Assembly: GCA_016280825.1 (NCBI GenBank)
Contig: JAEEHL010000191.1
Span: 1-33,082, forward strand
DNA: 33,082 nucleotides
Origin: Verrucomicrobiota bacterium
Lineage (GTDB): Bacteria > Verrucomicrobiota > Kiritimatiellia > RFP12 > UBA1067
Direction: 5' to 3'
How positions within the stretch are numbered: position 1 is the stretch's first letter; each line of letters begins with the position of its first letter. Positions 19,788 to 33,082 of the stretch are shown piece after piece. Below the pieces are notes generated by a model. That model did no database searches, had not been told where the DNA came from, and was given only the letters and a program-made list of their open reading frames with translations. A program made the position numbers and the translations under genes.

Positions 19788-19808
19788 TCCCGCCAGTCCA
19801 GCACAATG

Positions 19809-20161
19809 GGGGTGATCCGGTTTCGACGGGATGCGTGGAGGTCGGGTTGCGCGTCGTGGATGCTCGTTGGCCACGCTAAAAAACGGGCAAAAAAAGTAAT
19901 TGCGAACAACGATTACGCTCTGGCCGCCTAATTAAAGGCCGCCATGTCGAAGCGCCGATGTCTGCTGAGCGCCGAGGCATCATCTAGCAGGCCACGCTTA
20001 AGGGGGCTCCGCTCGCCCGCTTAAGGGTGCCGAATCGAACGGATGGATGCGGATAAGCCCGTGCGTCGGCATACCGCATCCGAGACCAATGGCGCAATAC
20101 ACGCGTAGATTCTCGGGCAAAGCCGTTTCGGACAGGGGTTCGACTCCCCTCACCTCCACCA
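19809..20161 (+). ncRNA. ssrA: tmRNA (transfer-messenger RNA), tag ANNDYALAA, CCA encoded
   Basis: 5' GGGGGTGATCCGGTTTCGACGGGAT pairs with 3' GGTTCGACTCCCCTCACCTCCACCA; ACACGCGTAGAT; tag ORF GCG AAC AAC GAT TAC GCT CTG GCC GCC TAA at 19902-19931. Confidence 0.97.
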
Positions 20162-23403: not shown

Positions 23404-25418
23404 GCGAAGGGGCTCTCCTGCAGGATCTCGCGGCGATAACCGCGCTTGCGGGCATCGCTGCCGTTCTCTTTACGAAGCTCAGGTTCCCGAAGGTCGTAGG
23501 GTACCTTCTCGTAGGCGTGCTCATGAGCGCGAACACGTGGGGCGGGAGCTTCCTCCTCGATTCCGGCTCGGTGCGCATGATAGGCCAGCTCGGGGTCGTG
23601 TTCCTCATGTTCTCGATGGGGCTTGGCTTTTCGCCGTCGCGCCTGGGGGCGGTGAAGTCGGTCGCCCTGCCTGTCGCCGCAGTCGACACGCTCGTCATGC
23701 TGTGGGCGGGCTATACCGTAGGCACGAGGGTCTTCGGCTGGAGCTTTGCTGCGTCGGTCTTTCTCGGCGCCGCGATCTGCGATTCCGCGACGACGATGAT
23801 GGGCAGGGTGATCGACGAGATGAAATGGTCCTCGCGGCCGTTTGTTGACAGGGCAATTGGAATATCGATCTGCGAGGATATCGCATGCATCGGCGTTCTC
23901 GCCCTCGTTTCCGGCGTCATAGAGGGGGGAGGGGTTTCGCTGCGGGCGGTCGGGTGGTCGCTCGGCGCGCTTGGAGTGTTCCTTCTCGCCGTGACCGTGT
24001 TCGGCTTTGCCAACGTGCCGCGCCTCTTCGAGTCCGTGGCGAAGACGGGCGACAACGAGACGCTGCTCCTTTCCGTCCTCGGGTGCTGCTTCTTCGTCAC
24101 GTACCTCGCCTACAGGTTCGGCTATTCTCTCTCGCTCGGCGCCTTCCTCGTCGGCATGATCGCGGCGGCCAGCAGCTGCCGCAGGAGGATAGCGGAGCTT
24201 GCAGGCCCTCTCCGCACCATGTTCGCGGCAGTCTTCTTCATTTCCATCGGCCTTCTCGTCGACCCGGCGGCGTGCTTCCGGCTTCTGCCGCAGATAGCGC
24301 TGGTGACGGCAGTGGTGGTGGTCGGCAAGTTCCTCAACTGCACCCTCGTCTCCGTCGTCTGCGGCGAATCCGTGAAGACGGCGGTGCAGATCGGCATGTC
24401 GCTTGCGCAGATAGGGGAGTTCGCGTTCATGGTGGCGATGCTCTACGCAGCCGGAACTGGCGACTGGACCAGCCCCATGTACCAGATAACCGTCGCGGTG
24501 TCGCTTGTGACGACCATCCTGAACCCGTTCATGCTGCGCCTTTCCGAGCCCTTGGGCGAATGGACGGAGAGGCGGCTCGGGGTGCGCGTCCTCGGGAAGC
24601 TCGAGACGTATCGCGGGTTCGTCGCCAAGTACAGGTTCGGCACCAGGCCGGACGTCGCGGGCAGGCGGGCGGTGCGCCGCCATGTAGCGGTGCTTGCCAT
24701 ACTTGCAGTGCTTGTCTTCGCTGTCGCCTTTGCGATGTCGGCCCTGGCGTCTCGCGACTGGTCAGCGTTTTCAAGGTTCTTCGACGCCTACAAGCAGTTT
24801 ATCTTCTGCCTTGCCGCCAATCTCTTCGCGGCTGCGGCGCTCGCGCCGGCGGTAGTCGTGGCGAAGCGCCTCGGAGGGGATCTTGGGGAGCTTCTTTTCG
24901 GCGGCGAGCGGGCGAAGTGGCGCGATTCCATGCAGATGGCGGTGCGGCTTCTCGTGGTTATCGTCGTCATGGCTCTTTTCTTCGTGGAGGTTTCGATGCT
25001 CAACGTGAGCCTCGCCCCGCAGGGGACATGGGCCAAGCTCGCGATATTTGCGATACTTCTTGCCGCTGGCGCACTGGGCTGGAAGCGCTCGCTGCGCCTT
25101 GCGCGGCTTGCGGCGAGGCGCGTGCGCAGCGCGATGAACCAGGACGAGTTGGACGCCTCTCGCGGCGGCGCAGTTGACGGCGGCCAGGGGATAGGAGGCG
25201 TTTCGCGCATTGCGATACCGGAAGGGTCTGGCGCAATAGGCAGCACGCTGCGCTCCCTCGACATCCGCGCCCGAACGGGGACGCTTGTCATTTCGGTCGA
25301 GCGCGGCGGCGAGGTGACGGGCAATCCAGGCGCAGAGTGGGCGTTCGAGAAGGGCGACATCCTCGTGGTCCTTGGCGACGAATCGCAGGTGGCGTCGCTC
25401 CGCAGCATTCTTGTCTAG
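23400..25418 (+). CDS. Kef-type cation:proton antiporter with C-terminal TrkA-C/RCK-C-like domain
   Basis: CPA2 core FPKVVGYLLVGVLMSANTWGG and GYSLSLGAFLVGMIAA, polytopic; C-terminal GSTLRSLDIRARTGTLVISVERGGEVTGNPGAEWAFEKGDILVVLG. Confidence 0.9.
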   Translation: MSEGALLQDLAAITALAGIAAVLFTKLRFPKVVGYLLVGVLMSANTWGGSFLLDSGSVRMIGQLGVVFLMFSMGLGFSPSRLGAVKSVALPVAAVDTLVMLWAGYTVGTRVFGWSFAASVFLGAAICDSATTMMGRVIDEMKWSSRPFVDRAIGISICEDIACIGVLALVSGVIEGGGVSLRAVGWSLGALGVFLLAVTVFGFANVPRLFESVAKTGDNETLLLSVLGCCFFVTYLAYRFGYSLSLGAFLVGMIAAASSCRRRIAELAGPLRTMFAAVFFISIGLLVDPAACFRLLPQIALVTAVVVVGKFLNCTLVSVVCGESVKTAVQIGMSLAQIGEFAFMVAMLYAAGTGDWTSPMYQITVAVSLVTTILNPFMLRLSEPLGEWTERRLGVRVLGKLETYRGFVAKYRFGTRPDVAGRRAVRRHVAVLAILAVLVFAVAFAMSALASRDWSAFSRFFDAYKQFIFCLAANLFAAAALAPAVVVAKRLGGDLGELLFGGERAKWRDSMQMAVRLLVVIVVMALFFVEVSMLNVSLAPQGTWAKLAIFAILLAAGALGWKRSLRLARLAARRVRSAMNQDELDASRGGAVDGGQGIGGVSRIAIPEGSGAIGSTLRSLDIRARTGTLVISVERGGEVTGNPGAEWAFEKGDILVVLGDESQVASLRSILV

Positions 25419-25496
25419 CATTGCCGTTTCCACCGGCAGGGTGAAGGGCGATGACAGTCTGCATTCCACATTCCCCGCGCCGCGCTGCCCGCTAGG

Positions 25497-25525
25497 TTGA
25501 TTTCCGCGAAGGCATTTGATATAAT
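25497..25525 (+). promoter_or_regulatory. Promoter of the acyl/polyene-like operon
   Basis: TTGATT (25497-25502), 17-bp spacer, TATAAT (25520-25525). Confidence 0.8.
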
Positions 25526-25597
25526 TCGTGAGTAAGAGGAAAGCGTGGAACTGGTGAGAATTCTGTTGAAAACCCGACTGCAGTTGGAATTGGGGAC

Positions 25598-25879
25598 ATG
25601 AAGAGAAAAGACCTTGAGGACGGCATACGCGATGCGATTCTCGCATCCGTGGAGGTGGAGGGCCTGACGGCGGAGGATCTGCCGTCCGAAGCTCCGCTGT
25701 TTGGAGATGACGGGGTGGGGCTTGATTCAATAGACGCCCTTGAAATCGGCGTTGCGCTCAAGAAGAAGTACAACGTCAATTTCAAGGCCAATTCGGAGAA
25801 GAACCGCGAAAGGTTCAGGACGGTGTCTTCCCTGGCGAGCTTCATCTCGGAATCTGCCGGCATTGAACTGGAGGACTGA
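25598..25879 (+). CDS. Acyl carrier protein-like protein (1)
   Basis: GLDSIDALEIGVALKKKY phosphopantetheine-attachment Ser motif. Confidence 0.9.
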   Translation: MKRKDLEDGIRDAILASVEVEGLTAEDLPSEAPLFGDDGVGLDSIDALEIGVALKKKYNVNFKANSEKNRERFRTVSSLASFISESAGIELED

Positions 25880-25884
25880 TTGAC

Positions 25885-26136
25885 ATGTCAAAGCGCGAAG
25901 AAGTTCTGGAACGCATCAAGAAGACACTTTCCGGGGAGTTCGAGTGCCCTCCGGAGAAGATAACCGAAGAGGCGCGTTTCTACGAAGACCTCGACCTCGA
26001 TTCAATCGACGCCGTCGATCTCATCGTGAGGCTGCGCCAGGAAGTGGACTTTGACCTGAAAAGCGAGGATTTCAAGGCAGTACGCACGGTAGGCGACCTG
26101 CTGGACGCCCTCGAAAAAGCTGCCGTCGCCAAGTGA
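25885..26136 (+). CDS. Acyl carrier protein (2)
   Basis: FYEDLDLDSIDAVDLIVRLRQE phosphopantetheine motif. Confidence 0.93.
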   Translation: MSKREEVLERIKKTLSGEFECPPEKITEEARFYEDLDLDSIDAVDLIVRLRQEVDFDLKSEDFKAVRTVGDLLDALEKAAVAK

Positions 26137-26139
26137 GCG

Positions 26140-26541
26140 ATGCGCCGTTCCGTGACCAAGACAGTATTGCAGGCCGGCGCGACGATCCTGGCGGTCTGGC
26201 TCGTGTATCTGTTCAAGGGCAACGTCTGGTTCAGGCTCTACCCGGTCGTCGTGACCGGTGCCGTCTTCCTGGCGTTTGCGCTGTCGCTGCGTGGAACGCC
26301 GCTAGTCGAGCGCTTCGCCATGCGCATGGGCGCCGACCTTGACGGCGGCGGCAGGGAGTACTGCCTCAAGGCGACGGTGGCCTGGACCGTGTTTCTCGCC
26401 GTGCACCTGGCAGTGACGGCGGCAACGGTCTTCGCTCCCCTTGAGATATGGGCCCTTTACAACGGCTGCATTGCATACGTCCTCATCGGCGCGATGTTCA
26501 TCGGCGAGTTCGCCGCAAGAAAGATTGCCCGTCATGGATGA
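26140..26541 (+). CDS. Small polytopic membrane protein, COG4648-like, of the type found in aryl-polyene clusters
   Basis: Several hydrophobic helices including YLFKGNVWFRLYPVVVTGAVFLAFALSL; lies between ACPs and the adenylating enzyme. Confidence 0.65.
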   Translation: MRRSVTKTVLQAGATILAVWLVYLFKGNVWFRLYPVVVTGAVFLAFALSLRGTPLVERFAMRMGADLDGGGREYCLKATVAWTVFLAVHLAVTAATVFAPLEIWALYNGCIAYVLIGAMFIGEFAARKIARHG

Positions 26542-27844
26542 AATGTCGTTCATGACGTCCGGGTCGACCGGCGAGCCGAGGCGAATCGCCCGCAGCCTTG
26601 ACGAGATGAAGGCCGACGCGGCATCCCTCGCCGCCCTGTTCGGTGAATCGTTTTCAAGGGCCGCGTTCCTTGCGGCGACCGTTCCCGAGGAGCATTTCTA
26701 CGGCGCGCTCTGGCGCAGGCTTCTCCCGGAGGCTCTCGGCATGCCCGTGGCGGACGGGATACAGACTTCCGTAGAGGACCTTTCCGCCCTTGCGGAACGC
26801 GGGAGGTTCGTCCTCGTCACTACGCCGTCGTTTCTCGAAAAGGCCGTGCGCCACCCGGACTTCGCATCGCTCAAGTCGTCGGTCGTGGACGTCGTGACTT
26901 CCGGGGGCGCGCTTTCGCAGGGCGCCTCCGAGTCGGCCACGCTTGCCATTGGCGTTTCGCCGCTTGAGATATACGGCTCGACCGAGGCCGGGACGATTGC
27001 GTGGAGAAGGCGCTCCGTTTCGCGGCTCTTCCGCTTTGCGTCCGGCGTGTCGGGCCATGAGGACGAAGGCGGTCGCCTCGTGGTCGAGTCGCCATTTGCC
27101 GCGGAAAGGCCGCTTGTGATGCACGACGCCGTTCGCTTTGCGGATTCGGGCGAGTTCGAAATCCTCGGGCGCACCGACAGGCTTGCGAAGGTTCTCGAGA
27201 AGTTCGTTTCGCTCGATGCCGTGGAAAGGGCGTTCGAGGCCCATCCGTTTGTGGAAAGGGCGCGTGCCGAGGCCGTCGACGTCGGCGGCGTTGCGCGAAC
27301 GGGGGTGCTCGCGGTCCTTTCGAAGGAGGGGCGCGAATTTCTTGCCGGTTCCACATACGAGGCCGTCATGTCGCGCCTTCGGCACGACATAGCGCCGACG
27401 CTCTCGTCGGGGGCATTCCCCAGGCGCATGCGCTTCGTGGCGGAAATGCCCGTGGACGCAAGGGGCAAGACGACTGCCGCGGCCGTGCGCGCCGAGCTTT
27501 CCGCGGCCTGCCACGAGCCGGTAGTCCTATCGTGGACTGCCATGGAGCGGACGCTCGACGCGGAGCTTGCGTTCCCGCCTGACGGCGGGTGGTTCGACGG
27601 GCACTTCCCCGAATTCCCGATACTTCCCGGCGTCGTGCAGCTCATCGTCCTGAGGCGCTTTGCGCTTCGCGCATTCGGGCGGTTCCCCGGCGTTTCGCAG
27701 TGGAGGAAAGTGAAGTTCCGGCGGCTTGTCCGCCCGGGCGAGCGCGTTCGCCTGAAAGTCGAAAGGAGGGACGAATGCAGTCTTGCGTTCGAGTATTCGG
27801 TTGGCGCAAAGGTCGCGTCTTCCGGAACTGTGCTGCCGCAATAG
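26534..27844 (+). CDS. AMP-forming acyl/aryl adenylating enzyme (N-terminally short) fused to a hotdog 3-hydroxyacyl-ACP dehydratase-like (ApeI/FabZ-type) domain
   Basis: MTSGSTGEPRRI (A3), EIYGSTEAG (A5), GRTDRLAKVLEKFVSLDAVE (A8), ARGKTTAAAVR (A10 Lys); C-terminal FPPDGGWFDGHFPEFPILPGVVQLIVL is a hotdog DH motif. Confidence 0.88.
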   Translation: MDEMSFMTSGSTGEPRRIARSLDEMKADAASLAALFGESFSRAAFLAATVPEEHFYGALWRRLLPEALGMPVADGIQTSVEDLSALAERGRFVLVTTPSFLEKAVRHPDFASLKSSVVDVVTSGGALSQGASESATLAIGVSPLEIYGSTEAGTIAWRRRSVSRLFRFASGVSGHEDEGGRLVVESPFAAERPLVMHDAVRFADSGEFEILGRTDRLAKVLEKFVSLDAVERAFEAHPFVERARAEAVDVGGVARTGVLAVLSKEGREFLAGSTYEAVMSRLRHDIAPTLSSGAFPRRMRFVAEMPVDARGKTTAAAVRAELSAACHEPVVLSWTAMERTLDAELAFPPDGGWFDGHFPEFPILPGVVQLIVLRRFALRAFGRFPGVSQWRKVKFRRLVRPGERVRLKVERRDECSLAFEYSVGAKVASSGTVLPQ

Positions 27845-28404
27845 CCGCGGCGTTCTTTATCGCTGCGCCTTGCTTGGCAGGCGAAGACGGCATCCGCGAC
27901 ATTGCCGAGAAGGCGATGCGCAAGGCGCTTTCGTCGTCCGCCGCGTGGAAGATGGAGCGCACCCTCCCCGGCACCGAGAAGGTCTTTGTCTCGTCCGGCA
28001 CCGTCAGCTGCCATGTAGGGGCAGAGGGCATTGAATGGCGCACCCTCGAGCCGTTCAGCGCACTTGTCGCCATGAAGAAGGACGCAATGGTCTTTGAGGA
28101 CGAAGACGGCCGGCGCGAGAAGTCCGCCAGCGACATGCCGCGCTATTCCGACATCCGCAAGGCGACCGACGCATTCGCCAAAGGCGAGAAGACCGCGTTT
28201 GACGACGTGTTCGAGGTCAAGGTCGAGGCGCTCGGGGAAGGCCGCTGGAAGGCGGTGTTCGTACCCAGGAACTCGATGCTTCGCGGCCTGGTCGAGAGCC
28301 TGTCGGTAGAGGGGAAGGATCTCCCCGAAAAGGCCGAGCTCAAAAGCGGCAACGGGGCCGTGAGCCGCATAGCGTTCGAGGAAAGAGGGGGCGATGCCAA
28401 ATAG
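27775..28404 (+). CDS. LolA-like periplasmic outer-membrane lipoprotein carrier homologue
   Basis: Signal peptide AAAIAAAFFIAAPCLA; LolA-like beta-rich body; position between ligase-DH and RND exporter as in aryl-polyene clusters. ATG at 27775. Confidence 0.7.
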   Translation: MQSCVRVFGWRKGRVFRNCAAAIAAAFFIAAPCLAGEDGIRDIAEKAMRKALSSSAAWKMERTLPGTEKVFVSSGTVSCHVGAEGIEWRTLEPFSALVAMKKDAMVFEDEDGRREKSASDMPRYSDIRKATDAFAKGEKTAFDDVFEVKVEALGEGRWKAVFVPRNSMLRGLVESLSVEGKDLPEKAELKSGNGAVSRIAFEERGGDAK

Positions 28405-30994
28405 GCGGCCGGCATTCGCCTTTGCCGCATCCGCCGCGCTTGCGCTGGCGGCATTGCTTGCATTTCTCGCCATAAGGCCGAAGGTAGGCCTTTCCGTCTA
28501 CGCGATGCTCGGCGACGGCTCTTCCTTCGTGTCGGACGAAGAGCGGAGCGAATCGGCCGGCACGGCGTTTGCCGTGATCTCCTCGGGTTCCGGCCCGTCG
28601 GTGTGCAACGAGGCCGCAAGGCACTTTGCGTCGCTTCTGCCCGCCAGGTTTCTCAAGTCCCAGCCTGCGGACGTCGCCGGCGCGCAGGGCATCCCCTCGG
28701 CGCTTGCGAGATTCGCCGCCCGCGCCGGGGGGCTTGTCGCAAAGCGCGATTTCGAGGCGCTTTCTACTGGCGAAGGGCGGGCCAGGATCGCGAGGGACGC
28801 CATCAGGCGCTATGTCGCCTCTCCCATGCCGCCGGCGTTCGGCCCGGACGACGACCCGTTTTGCCTCAAGGACAGGTTCCTCATGTCGTTTGCCGATTCG
28901 GGCGTATTCGTGCTGCCGGTTTCGCTGGCGAATGAAACGACGTCCGACATGGACGCCCTTGCCGCGTTTGCATCCGCGATGCGCGGGGCGGCGGCCAGTA
29001 CTGAGGAGGCGTTCGGCGGCAGGGTCCGCGTCATGCCGTGCGGAGTGCCGGTCCACACCGCCTCTGCCGTCTCGAAGTCGAAAAGGGAGATAGGGGTGCT
29101 TTCCGCGGTTTCGTCGCTTCTTATCCTCGCGATCGCGCTCTTGGCGTTCCGCCCGCTTTCCCGCATCTGGTACGTTGTCGCGTCGCTCGTCTTCTCCGTC
29201 TCGGCGGGCGCGACGGCGCTTGTGGTCTCGTCGCCGTCGTTCCACGTGATGACCATTGTCTTCGGCACTGCGGTTCTCGGCCTTGTTGTCGACTATTCGT
29301 TCCACTGGCTTCTTTGCGCAGCCGACGACTGGAGGCGCCCTGCGCGGAATCTCGCCATATCGTTTGCGACGACAGCGCTCTCGCTTGCGCCGCTTTGGTT
29401 CTCGTCGCTTCCGATACTGCGCGAGACGGCGGTGTTCCTCGTCTCGTCCCTCGCGGCCGCCTTTGCGTTCGCGGTCTGCTTCTGCCCCGTGCCGGAAAAA
29501 ACCGACCCGCGTCTCGAAACGCCCCCGTGCCGCCCGCAGAGAATCGCGAAGGGGGCGCTTCGCGTAGTTCTCGTCTCGGCGATGGCGGCGGCGGCAGTCC
29601 TGGCATCCCGCCTGAAGGTTGCAACCGACCCAGCGTCGCTCTACGTCCCCTCGGCCGAGCTTATGGAGCCCGAGCGCATTATTGCGTCGCTTTTCGAGCC
29701 GCCGCCCGAATCCGTTGCCGCGGACGTCCGCAGGCTTTACGCCGAGCAGGGCGAGAAGGTCGCCCGCGCGCTCGGCCTTTCGGAAACGCCCAGGCCGCCG
29801 GCCGTTCGGCGAAGCGCGGCGGCTGAGCTTTCGGCCGTGATGAACGCCCTTGCCGACGAAACGGCGCGGCGCTTCGCCCTTGCGCTCGTTGCAATGTTCG
29901 CCGCGCTCTTCGCAGTTTTCAGGCTGGGCGCGTTTGCAGTTGCGGCCCCGCCTGTCTTCGCAGTCGCCGTAGCAGCGGCTGCAGTCGCCGCGACAGGCGG
30001 AACGGCAAACCTGTTCCATATCCTCGCCGCGATCCTTCTCGCGGGCATGTGCGTGGACTATGCGGTATTCCTGCGCTCCGGGGAACGCGGCGCGCTAAAG
30101 TCGTCCACTTGTTCGCTCCTTACGAGCCTTGCCGGGTTCGGGGCGCTTGCATTCGTGTCGTTCCGCCCGGCCGCCGCATTTGGCACCGTTCTCGGGGTAG
30201 GGCTCCCCTCGGGCTTCCTCGCGGCGCTCGCGCTTCGGCCGAATCGCCGGGAGAGCGGCGTCGAGAAGGCCGCTTCGCCGCTTGGCATGGAGATAGTCTG
30301 GCTGTTCTACCGCGTCTTCGGGCTTCGCGCCATGCGCCTACTTGCGCAGTGCGTGGCAAGCTGCGTCTGGGCGTTTTCGCCAGCCGTGCGCAGGGCCTCG
30401 CCTTCGCGCAGGAAGCTTGTCCTGTTCGCGCGGTCGCTCGCCGACAAGACGGCGGTGGGGAGCGGGCGCGTCAAGGCGCTGAAGGTGGTGGACGACGGCT
30501 CGCCAGACGCGCGGGAATTCGCAGACGACGTCACGTCAGGGCGCGGCGTTTTCATCCTCTCGTCACATTGCGGCACGGTGGAGGCGCTTCTCGCCCTTGC
30601 GGAGAACCCGCCTGTCTTCCATGCCTGGACGGATTTCGAGCGCACGTCCGCGTTCAACGAATTCTACCTAAGGCACATCTGCGGCGGGAAGATATGCCTG
30701 CATTCCGTCTCGGACATCGGCCTTGACACAGCGTTCAGCGCCATTGGATGGCTGGAGCGCGGCGAGTGCCTCGTCATGGCGGGCGACAGGGGAAGGGGCG
30801 CGTTCCGCTTTGCCGCCGCGCTTGGGCGGCCAGTCTATTTCGCGACGTGCATTGCCGACGGCCCGGGATACGTCGCCGTCATCCGCCGCCTGCGCGGCAA
30901 GGCGCCTGAAATCGAGAAGGGGTTCTTCGCCGTGCTTGGCGAGCTCGAGGCGAAGCACCCGGACCAGGTATATGAATGGGAAGGGGTGAAATGA
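28394..30994 (+). CDS. RND/MMPL-family exporter fused to a C-terminal LpxL/HtrB-type lysophospholipid acyltransferase-like domain
   Basis: Duplicated TM bundles with VVDYSFHWLLC and GMCVDYAVFLRSGERGA (MMPL motifs); C-terminal FILSSHCGTVEALLALAE (HX4E), VMAGDRGRGAFRFAAALGRPVYFATCI (LpxL-like). Confidence 0.87.
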   Translation: MPNRRPAFAFAASAALALAALLAFLAIRPKVGLSVYAMLGDGSSFVSDEERSESAGTAFAVISSGSGPSVCNEAARHFASLLPARFLKSQPADVAGAQGIPSALARFAARAGGLVAKRDFEALSTGEGRARIARDAIRRYVASPMPPAFGPDDDPFCLKDRFLMSFADSGVFVLPVSLANETTSDMDALAAFASAMRGAAASTEEAFGGRVRVMPCGVPVHTASAVSKSKREIGVLSAVSSLLILAIALLAFRPLSRIWYVVASLVFSVSAGATALVVSSPSFHVMTIVFGTAVLGLVVDYSFHWLLCAADDWRRPARNLAISFATTALSLAPLWFSSLPILRETAVFLVSSLAAAFAFAVCFCPVPEKTDPRLETPPCRPQRIAKGALRVVLVSAMAAAAVLASRLKVATDPASLYVPSAELMEPERIIASLFEPPPESVAADVRRLYAEQGEKVARALGLSETPRPPAVRRSAAAELSAVMNALADETARRFALALVAMFAALFAVFRLGAFAVAAPPVFAVAVAAAAVAATGGTANLFHILAAILLAGMCVDYAVFLRSGERGALKSSTCSLLTSLAGFGALAFVSFRPAAAFGTVLGVGLPSGFLAALALRPNRRESGVEKAASPLGMEIVWLFYRVFGLRAMRLLAQCVASCVWAFSPAVRRASPSRRKLVLFARSLADKTAVGSGRVKALKVVDDGSPDAREFADDVTSGRGVFILSSHCGTVEALLALAENPPVFHAWTDFERTSAFNEFYLRHICGGKICLHSVSDIGLDTAFSAIGWLERGECLVMAGDRGRGAFRFAAALGRPVYFATCIADGPGYVAVIRRLRGKAPEIEKGFFAVLGELEAKHPDQVYEWEGVK

Positions 30995-32100
30995 GCCATT
31001 GCCGATATATGCTTTCTGAAATGGGCATCGTCTGCGCGCTCGGCGCGGACGTCGGCGAGGTCGGACGCAGGCTTGCGGCAGGCGACCAGTCGGGCATGAA
31101 GCCGCTCGGCGGCCTTTCAGGCGGCGAGTCTACGTTCTTCGGCTTTGCCGCCCGGATGCCGTCGCCAGCGACGATTGGCGAGCGCGTGAAGTCAGTGCTA
31201 GGCCTGCCGCGCGTCGGCGTGCTCGTCGATGCCGCGATGGAGCAGCTTTCCGCCGCCCTCGAAGCGGCCAAGTCGAGATATGGCGCGGCGAGAGTCGGCG
31301 CGGTCGTCGGCACGAGCAATTCCACGATGGAGGAGTTCACCGACAACCCCGACGTAATCGACATGTCGTGGCCGGCGAGGAGGCTGCGCGAAAGGTGGGG
31401 CGTGGAAGGGCCTTGCTGGGCAGTGTCGACGGCCTGTTCGTCGTCGGCAAAGGTCTTCGCCTCCGCGCGGCGGCTAATGGAGCGCGGGATATGCGACGCA
31501 GTCGTAGTCGGCGGGGCAGACGCCTACACGCGCACCGTCGTGGAGGGGTTCCATGCGCTTGAGGCGCTTTCGCCCGGGCTCGCGCGCCCGCTCGCGCCAG
31601 ACCGCGACGGAATAAACCTCGGCGAGGGCGCGGCGTTCTTCCTGATGGAGCGCGACGAAAGGCCGGGAGAGGGCGTCTGGCTCTCCGGCGTCGGAGAGTC
31701 GTCTGACGCATACCATCTGACCGCACCCGATCCCGAGGGGAAGGGCGCGGAGGCGGCGATGAGGCGTGCACTGGAGGACGCCGGGCTCGCGCCTCGCGAA
31801 ATTGACTTCATAAACCTGCACGGAACGGGAACGCAGCAGAACGACGCCATGGAATGCGCCGCAGTCGGGCGGATATTCGGCGGCAGGGAGCCAGTGGAAG
31901 GCTGTTCGCCAGCCGACGGGCTTGAAGTGCGGGTTGTTTCCACAAAGAGCCTCACGGGGCATTGCCTTGGCGCGGCAGGGGCAATCGAGGCCGCGCTTTG
32001 CTGGATCGAGCTTATGCGCCGCCCGGCGACGTGCCTTTCCAACTCGTTTGCCTTCGGCGGCAGCAACGCGTCCCTCGTGCTCGCCTCGCGGCACGTCTGA
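30991..32100 (+). CDS. Beta-ketoacyl-ACP synthase (FabF/ApeO-like KS)
   Basis: Cys in VSTACSSSAKVF, His in INLHGTGTQQNDAMEC, His in STKSLTGHCLGAAGAIEA, terminal NSFAFGGSNASLVL; ATGA overlap with the exporter gene. Confidence 0.95.
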   Translation: MSHCRYMLSEMGIVCALGADVGEVGRRLAAGDQSGMKPLGGLSGGESTFFGFAARMPSPATIGERVKSVLGLPRVGVLVDAAMEQLSAALEAAKSRYGAARVGAVVGTSNSTMEEFTDNPDVIDMSWPARRLRERWGVEGPCWAVSTACSSSAKVFASARRLMERGICDAVVVGGADAYTRTVVEGFHALEALSPGLARPLAPDRDGINLGEGAAFFLMERDERPGEGVWLSGVGESSDAYHLTAPDPEGKGAEAAMRRALEDAGLAPREIDFINLHGTGTQQNDAMECAAVGRIFGGREPVEGCSPADGLEVRVVSTKSLTGHCLGAAGAIEAALCWIELMRRPATCLSNSFAFGGSNASLVLASRHV

Positions 32101-32193
32101 AGGTAGGGCCGTCTCGCGACCGGCTTAGGCTCAACGAGTGGGTGCTGTCTTTAGTTAGGTAGTTGCTGTGTCCGCGCCGTGCTGTGTCAACGT

Positions 32194-32353
32194 GCGGCAT
32201 GTTTCGCCGCAACGTTGCTCGCCCGCGACAACGGGCGATTTGCGCGTACCGCGACCGCTTGCTGTATACGTATACAGCGGCGGGTCGCGTTCCTGCGCAA
32301 CTCGCCTCGTTCTCGCGTGACTGCGCCCCGCTGACGGCGGCGAAACATGCCGC
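32194..32353. repeat. Long nested imperfect inverted repeat with a perfect central 18-bp palindrome
   Basis: GCGGCATGTTTCGCCGC (32194-32210) vs GCGGCGAAACATGCCGC (32337-32353); inner pairs CGCGA/TCGCG, GGCGA/TCGCC, TTGCGC/GCGCAA, GCGACC/GGTCGC; centre GCTGTATACGTATACAGC (32261-32278). Confidence 0.9.
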
Positions 32354-32693
32354 GTTAGCCATTCTGGTGGTGTCGGTCGCTTCGTTCGTGCCTCGGCGCT
32401 CGGCCCCGGTCGACGTTCCCGACGCTCTCACGCTCTGCATCGTCAATCCGCGGCACTCTGCTTCGTCGCCTCTCTACGCGGCTGATCGCCGCTTCGTTCG
32501 TCTCCTTGCATAGCACCGCGCCTTGCCGCGCATAGCGCGAACCGCGACGTGCCCGGCTCCCTCCGCCATACGCCTCGGCCTTCTCTCCGTGCCCGACTTT
32601 GACTTGTCGGGATTTGCGCCCCAGCCGTTGCAGTTGCAAAGTCATTCGCAAGTGCTGCGGCTCTAAGCGGAAGTTTCTTTTTCTCCGCGGCGG

Positions 32694-32721
32694 TTTTCGA
32701 GGCGGATTTTTTGATATAATA
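32694..32721 (+). promoter_or_regulatory. Promoter of the candidate structured RNA / methylase leader
   Basis: TATAAT at 32716-32721 in tttttgatataatatacgg, matching the -10 context of other promoters in the window; weak -35 (TTTTCG). Confidence 0.65.
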
Positions 32722-32727
32722 TACGGC

Positions 32728-32957
32728 ATCCTGCGAGGCGGAAGGCGCGGCGTAGGGTCATAGTCCGGGAAACGAACCCAATTCCACCGGGCGCATTAGT
32801 TTGTTGCACTGCTGCAACGCTGTCGTTCCCTGAAACCTGAGAAATTTCAAACAAGACGACGTGATTGCAGAGATGTGCCGTTTGGCACACCTCTACACGT
32901 TTCTTGTTGGGCTTCTCAGGGCCTCAGGGATGACGTGACTAGAGGGTGCCTCTTTTC
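32728..32957 (+). ncRNA. Candidate structured non-coding RNA or 5' leader, identity unknown
   Basis: Downstream of a TATAAT box; hairpin GTTGCA-ctgc-TGCAAC (32804-32819); long rod 32822-32934 (~38 bp in seven helices capped by GTGCC-GTTT-GGCAC); weak terminator-like AGAGG-GTG-CCTCT-TTT. Confidence 0.55.
32941..32956 (+). terminator. Weak intrinsic-terminator-like hairpin
   Basis: AGAGG (32941-32945), loop GTG, CCTCT (32949-32953), then TTT. Confidence 0.35.
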
Positions 32958-33000
32958 ATTTCCTGACACGCTGCCGCGGCGCTTGTCACGGAGATGAGGA

Positions 33001-33082
33001 ATGGCCAACAGGAATCTTTCGACTGCGAAGAACGCCGAGAACGCCGAGTTCTACACGCAGCTTAACGACATACAGGCGGAAG
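33001..33082 (+). CDS. N-terminal fragment resembling EcoRI-family adenine-specific DNA methyltransferases (truncated by window end)
   Basis: MANRNLSTAKNAENAEFYTQLNDIQAE resembles the conserved xxAKxxKxDEFYTQxxDIxxE start of EcoRI-type methylases; SD-like GGAGATGAGGA just upstream. Confidence 0.6.
   Translation, partial: MANRNLSTAKNAENAEFYTQLNDIQAE

Follow-up and report, generated by a model that had tools for sequence, protein, structure and literature searches.

What can be made by an operon that resembles an aryl-polyene (APE) cluster and lacks several of its canonical enzymes? The question is raised by seven genes at positions 25598–32100 of the window, the 33,082-nt stretch of DNA analyzed here, which is the complete contig C12 (positions 1–33082) of a draft genome (2.32 Mb, 227 contigs) from an uncultured gut/rumen bacterium of the Kiritimatiellae. 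Aryl-polyenes are yellow antioxidant membrane pigments, and a preliminary description of the locus had suggested a minimal polyene system that borrows the housekeeping ketoreductase (KR) FabG. Very probably, the operon supplies half of an APE pathway, and the other half, ApeP-ApeQ-ApeR-ApeC-ApeD, is found on C162, another contig of this genome. In this reading, the locus is a rearranged version of a well-known system: a genuine half-cluster for APE, with the pathway spread over two loci and with fusions and losses specific to the lineage.

All seven open reading frames (ORFs) of the operon are on the plus strand, with spacers of 5 and 3 bp and overlaps thereafter. Gene identities were assigned by blastp of the window ORFs against the ape proteins of Escherichia coli CFT073 (L078, c1204–c1186), and every one of the seven matched above chance. 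The resulting series is ApeE, ApeF, ApeG, a fused ApeH and ApeI (ApeHI), ApeL, ApeM fused to the acyltransferase half of ApeJ, and ApeO. The E. coli gene order is retained, except that the acyltransferase has shifted to the end of ApeM. The genes are as follows:

25598–25879, plus strand: ApeE-like acyl carrier protein (ACP), 48% identical to E. coli ApeE (E = 1e-22)
25885–26136, plus strand: ApeF-like ACP, 46% identical to E. coli ApeF (E = 7e-23)
26140–26541, plus strand: ApeG (COG4648-like) membrane protein, 133 amino acids (aa), 33% identical to E. coli ApeG (E = 2e-16)
26534–27844, plus strand: ApeH-ApeI fusion, 438 aa (ApeH, E = 4e-43; ApeI, E = 4e-5)
27775–28404, plus strand: ApeL, LolA-like periplasmic carrier with a signal peptide, 21% identical to E. 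coli ApeL (E = 4e-6)
28394–30994, plus strand: ApeM-acyltransferase fusion (E. coli ApeM, E = 1e-12; ApeJ residues 261–446, E = 5e-11)
30976–32100, plus strand: ApeO, catalytic ketosynthase (KS) subunit of the ApeO:ApeC pair of KS and chain-length factor (CLF), 38% identical to E. coli ApeO (E = 3e-78)

The tight operon and the gene list of the preliminary description were thus borne out for seven of seven genes, and its assignment to the aryl-polyenes is upheld by the KS. In a KS tree, the window KS falls within the ApeO clade, clustering with E. coli ApeO and away from FabF and ApeR, and its best PDB matches are 6qsp_A and 7f28_B, the two ApeO chains of ApeO:ApeC. Its catalytic residues are intact (Cys in TACSSS, His in NLHGTGT and His in TGHCLG); its NF006618 score of 359.5 bits is under the cut-off of 407. 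The ApeE-like protein, with an aligned phosphopantetheine site of GLDSIDAL, is the predicted carrier of the aryl starter (NF006617, 62.7 bits, under the cut-off of 70), and the ApeF-like protein, with the site DLDSIDAV, is the predicted malonyl or extension carrier (NF003757, 94.7 bits, over the cut-off of 65). The serine of the DSID motif is retained in both alignments, and the operon has two dedicated ACPs. An export set of ApeG, ApeL and ApeM is likewise present by sequence match to E. coli. The aligned part of ApeG corresponds to residues 62–185 of the 193-aa E. coli protein, and Pfam searches of the window ApeG and ApeL proteins each gave zero matches. A GGAGG ribosome-binding site precedes ApeL.

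The missing enzymes were located by a genome search for ketosynthases (PF00109), which returned four genes: FabF (C65), ApeO (C12), ApeR (C162) and a divergent polyketide synthase (PKS)-like KS (C219). On C162, the KS lies in the middle of an adjacent series of five genes:

C162: ApeP, dehydratase, 31% identical to E. coli ApeP (PF22817 above cut-off)
C162: ApeQ, ketoreductase, 53% identical to E. coli ApeQ
C162: ApeR, second ketosynthase, 53% identical to E. coli ApeR (best PDB matches 4ewg/7f27)
C162: ApeC, chain-length factor, 29% identical to E. coli ApeC (PF13723, 99.6 bits; PDB 7f28_A/6qsp_B)
C162: ApeD, lysophospholipid-type acyltransferase, 32% identical to E. coli ApeD

With this series on C162, the seemingly incomplete operon is very probably half of a complete pathway. 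The dehydratase pair is divided as well, with ApeI (PF22818) in the window and ApeP (PF22817) on C162; the genome encodes both subunits of a heterodimeric ApeI:ApeP dehydratase, a complex that is predicted from the genes. The absence of KR, second KS or CLF, thioesterase, ammonia lyase and glycosyltransferase noted in the preliminary description therefore holds for contig C12, but genome-wide it fails for KR, KS and CLF. The genome search that it had proposed recovered KR and KS on C162 and did not recover an aromatic ammonia lyase (HAL, PF00221). No second complete APE cluster was found in the genome, where PF00109 detects only the four KS genes, and C162 complements the window. The C219 KS was considered as a pathway member and rejected, as its neighbors include no ape genes. 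This divergent, 476-aa protein (L006 6690–11410, minus strand) is encoded beside a protein of ~1100 aa, in which an acyltransferase domain (scoring under the Pfam cut-off) is combined with a phosphopantetheinyl transferase domain at the C-terminus; together, the two resemble a small PKS or lipid synthase system of their own. After ApeD on C162 there is an RND periplasmic adaptor (HlyD_D23; L005 13137–14378, minus strand), for which no counterpart was matched beside the ape genes in relatives' loci.

In relatives, the two halves are joined. The closest relative found (L125, genome G254) has all twelve genes contiguous, in the order E-F-G-HI-L-M/AT-O-P-Q-R-C-D (AT, acyltransferase), and is evidently the same locus as L079 from the rumen metagenome-assembled genome (MAG) RUG14492. 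The contiguous twelve-gene series also occurs in L030, L032, L033, L038 and L044, of which the last is more distant. In L127, from another family of the same order, gene order is the same, with genes for a family 2 glycosyltransferase (GT2) and a thioesterase inserted after HI; as L127 retains them, the window lineage probably lost both. The window genome thus has its ape genes on two contigs, against one cluster in relatives. A single-cluster layout is usual in the APE family and inessential to the chemistry, and its absence does not exclude membership.

Several features set this lineage apart: a fusion of ApeM with an acyltransferase, a shortened ApeH, gene losses and the lack of a recognizable source of the aromatic starter. 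In the fusion protein, residues 1 to ~630 are the RND/MMPL exporter ApeM and residues ~631–866 the LpxL-like acyltransferase half of ApeJ, which retains its HX4E motif (HCGTVE) and lacks the GT2 domain. The same in-frame fusion is present in 12 of the 12 Kiritimatiellae loci checked, but in neither E. coli nor L104, a contig of a Candidatus Gastranaerophilales MAG (CALVGY010000020.1; Melainabacteria). No published account of the fusion was found, though no literature search was aimed at it. The L104 cluster itself, an APE cluster with an ApeHI fusion, may reflect lateral transfer or misbinning.

The ApeHI fusion of the window is not new, as an ApeH-ApeI fusion has already been described in Acinetobacter baumannii (PMC8041823). 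Residues 6–321 of the window protein align to E. coli ApeH 135–445 and residues 355–411 to ApeI; Pfam detects AMP-binding and ApeI-like (PF22818) domains, and PDB matches for the ApeI part are 6qsr/3esi. E. coli ApeH begins with ~134 residues that are missing here, and the same shortening is seen in all relatives checked. A hidden N-terminal part was sought both in the upstream sequence of the same frame and with residues 1–134 of the E. coli protein as query, and none was found; in nine of nine other loci checked, the in-frame residues upstream of ApeHI number at most 50. The adenylation motifs are intact nonetheless (TSGSTG, GSTEAG, D198, R213 and K312). An AlphaFold model (predicted local distance difference test score, 90.8) matched many generic ANL ligases in a fold search, along with the 350-aa Dyadobacter protein 4gs5, which is similarly short; the modeled fold supports an ANL ligase and says nothing on substrate. 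The best NCBIfam match of ApeHI is the 4-coumarate-CoA ligase family TIGR02372, which is also the best match of E. coli ApeH, over the same profile region, and from this match the starter is most likely aromatic.

Some results weigh against a complete APE pathway in this genome. The MAG is 83% complete with an estimated contamination of 4.7%, the sequence matches for ApeL, ApeM and ApeI are weak, and neither locus (C12 or C162) has ApeA, ApeB, ApeK, the LolB-like ApeN or the GT2 half of ApeJ. Absent from both loci, too, are thioesterase, GT2 and ammonia lyase genes. The best thioesterase match in the genome (C148, 36% identical to the ApeK of L127) has non-ape neighbors and is more likely a housekeeping protein, and the best matches to the GT2 half of ApeJ are generic GT2s. 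By analogy with E. coli, where apeD, apeJ and apeK deletion mutants keep partial pigment (PMC8253772), loss of ApeK and of the GT2 half need not halt polyene formation. Three known sources of an aromatic acid went undetected as well: aromatic ammonia lyase (PF00221), UbiC (PF04345) and the Rv2949c-type lyase (PF01947) were each detected in 0 of 58 genomes of the genus, the window genome included, with each search positive in control genomes. An aryl starter would consequently have to come from another enzyme or from uptake, or else the starter is non-aromatic.

How do other explanations of the locus fare? That the seven genes act alone, with housekeeping FabG, FabF and FabZ supplying the other steps, would suit a tight operon that has neither a KR nor a CLF nor a second KS close by. 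This idea is very improbable, since dedicated genes for ApeP, ApeQ, ApeR, ApeC and ApeD exist on C162 and are contiguous with the window genes in relatives, since ApeO functions in a heterodimer with ApeC (PMC8358021), and since FabG failed to substitute for ApeQ in vitro in A. baumannii (PMC8041823). The borrowing of FabG is accordingly abandoned. Equally hard to credit is a binning error, in which C162 would belong to another organism and the window genome would truly lack these five genes. Such an error is compatible with the contamination estimate and with the location of the halves on separate contigs; against it, C12 and C162 are alike in tetranucleotide profile (correlation, 0.987) and similar in G+C, window ApeO and C162 ApeR each cluster in the KS tree with the copies of the same relative (G254, with starred support both times), C162 also encodes serC, efp and cell-division genes, and ApeR is present in 17 of the 18 genomes searched.

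The remaining alternatives concern the product. A cluster of the flexirubin or dialkylresorcinol (DAR) type would have the aryl-polyene part in common with the present genes and a 4-coumarate-CoA-ligase-type initiation (PMC3992019), which the ligase match recalls. We give this reading scant credence: no aromatic ammonia lyase was detected in the 58 genomes, and there are no DarA- or DarB-like genes among those called at either locus, a statement confined to these two loci, as the genome was not searched by name. Less improbable, though still unlikely, is that the same enzymes use another starter, with ApeHI loading a non-aromatic or unusual acid, such as a scavenged plant phenolic, to yield a polyene lipid other than the classical 4-hydroxyphenyl APE. 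The gut or rumen habitat of the bacterium is rich in plant phenolics, and the lack of the known aromatic-acid sources and the truncated ApeH of all relatives checked point the same way. Opposed to this are the TIGR02372 match shared with E. coli ApeH and the presence of aryl ligases among the fold neighbors, although these are generic to the ANL fold. A bolder proposal, slightly more doubtful again, is that this branch, without known aromatic supply, glycosyltransferase or thioesterase, loads scavenged plant phenolics or a non-aromatic acid through its shortened ligase and delivers the polyene to the exporter-built acyltransferase, giving a new type of polyene lipid.

For an APE pathway divided between C12 and C162, a mechanism can be proposed by homology to reconstituted systems (PMC8358021; PMC8253772). 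Observed here were the identities of the genes, the catalytic residues of their products, and the layout, with two loci in this genome and one in relatives; from published APE work we infer, by analogy, enzyme activities, step order and product. The ApeH part of ApeHI would adenylate an aromatic acid and load it onto ApeE. ApeO from the window and ApeC from C162 would then condense the starter with malonyl units carried by ApeF, with ApeR assisting. Each beta-keto group would be reduced by ApeQ, and removal of water by the ApeI part together with ApeP would leave a fully conjugated polyene. Attachment of the polyene acid to a membrane lipid may be the task of ApeD and the ApeM-fused acyltransferase, after which ApeM would mediate crossing of the inner membrane and ApeL carriage toward the outer membrane.

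Why the pathway is divided is addressed by the end of the window. The preliminary description placed the operon between an antiporter gene and ~0.9 kb of non-coding DNA, and both boundaries were confirmed: the upstream neighbor is a CPA2-type antiporter (PF00999 + TrkA_C), and the KS is followed by ~0.9 kb without coding sequence up to a gene start, at ~32990–33082, that is cut by the contig end and reads MANRNLSTAKNAENAEFYTQLNDIQAE. The likeness of this fragment is presumably to the start of EcoRI-type adenine methyltransferases. Two further features flank the operon:

32101–32780, no strand: non-coding dispersed repeats directly 3′ of ApeO, matching ~15 other contigs
25497–25525, plus strand: candidate sigma-70-like promoter, TTGATT-17-(TG)TATAAT, ~72 bp 5′ of the first gene (consensus match only)

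The repeat pieces are up to 86% identical over 270 bp (on C170) and include a 160-bp element whose 17-bp inverted arms match perfectly (32194–32210 / 32337–32353). ApeO stops 982 bp short of the C12 end and ApeP begins 1979 bp from that of C162, with the halves facing each other. The only match found as an overlap or repeat connecting the two contigs is one of 24 bp, distant from the ape genes of C162. The halves may be one cluster with an assembly-breaking insertion at a repeat-rich site, or two distant loci. Breaks after ApeO recur within the genus. For instance, in G040 and G037, unrelated genes come after an ApeO that lies well within its contig, and P-Q-R is on another contig, so real splits of the cluster occur. 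In G023, the blocks ApeE-to-M and P-to-D adjoin in divergent orientation and an M/AT-O piece is on a further contig, and in G047, E-to-L and M/AT-O are on separate contigs and a search for ApeR found none. Conserved flanks indicating one ancestral split were not found; the genes after ApeO and before ApeP vary between genomes, and these case-by-case differences suggest repeated rearrangement. A second ApeO lineage (L042–L058; 44–52% identical) also occurs in genomes of the same genus, in most cases with just an ApeP-like gene behind it. Where ApeR was sought (G049, G005), it lay on a different contig, and the dispersal of ape genes seems greater still in this group.

As for the promoter, it is the sole sigma-70-like match within 25300–33082, and a weak one, with 0.7 expected by chance. 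Elsewhere in the window, a tmRNA gene occupies positions 19808–20161 (Rfam RF00023, 175.5 bits).

An apparently incomplete cluster in a fragmented metagenome genome can therefore be half of a complete pathway. Here, even the heterodimeric KS subunits ApeO and ApeC are on different contigs, and contig-by-contig cluster scoring would label such genomes deficient. Should the acyltransferase-exporter fusion and the gap in starter supply hold up, the attachment of polyene to lipid becomes testable, as does the origin of the aryl starter in bacteria without UbiC or ammonia lyase.

Comparison with known systems places the locus as follows. E. coli CFT073 apeA–R has one-to-one counterparts of E, F, G, H, I, L, M and O in the window and of P, Q, R, C and D on C162, plus the acyltransferase half of J, with the same relative order of E-F-G-H-I-L-M-O-P-Q-R. 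In E. coli, however, there is one locus rather than two, C and D come first rather than after R, H and I are separate and H is ~134 aa longer, J has a GT2 half and is not joined to M, A, B, K and N are present, the CLF is 240 aa long instead of 154, and ApeO is longer near its C-terminus. The Chitinophaga pinensis flexirubin cluster (PMC3992019) shares the aryl-polyene part and starter activation of the 4-coumarate-CoA-ligase type, and differs in having a tyrosine ammonia-lyase, a type of enzyme absent here, and a dialkylresorcinol. The APE system of A. baumannii resembles the present one in its ApeI at the ApeH C-terminus, its CLF of one thiolase fold, and its use of ApeO:ApeC plus ApeR (PMC8041823, PMC8358021), but its published description is of one cluster. 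Finally, the other Kiritimatiellae loci (L125/L079, L032, L033, L038, L044 and L127) share the gene set, the HI fusion and the M-acyltransferase fusion; they differ from the window genome in being single contiguous clusters, to which L127 adds its retained GT2 and thioesterase genes.

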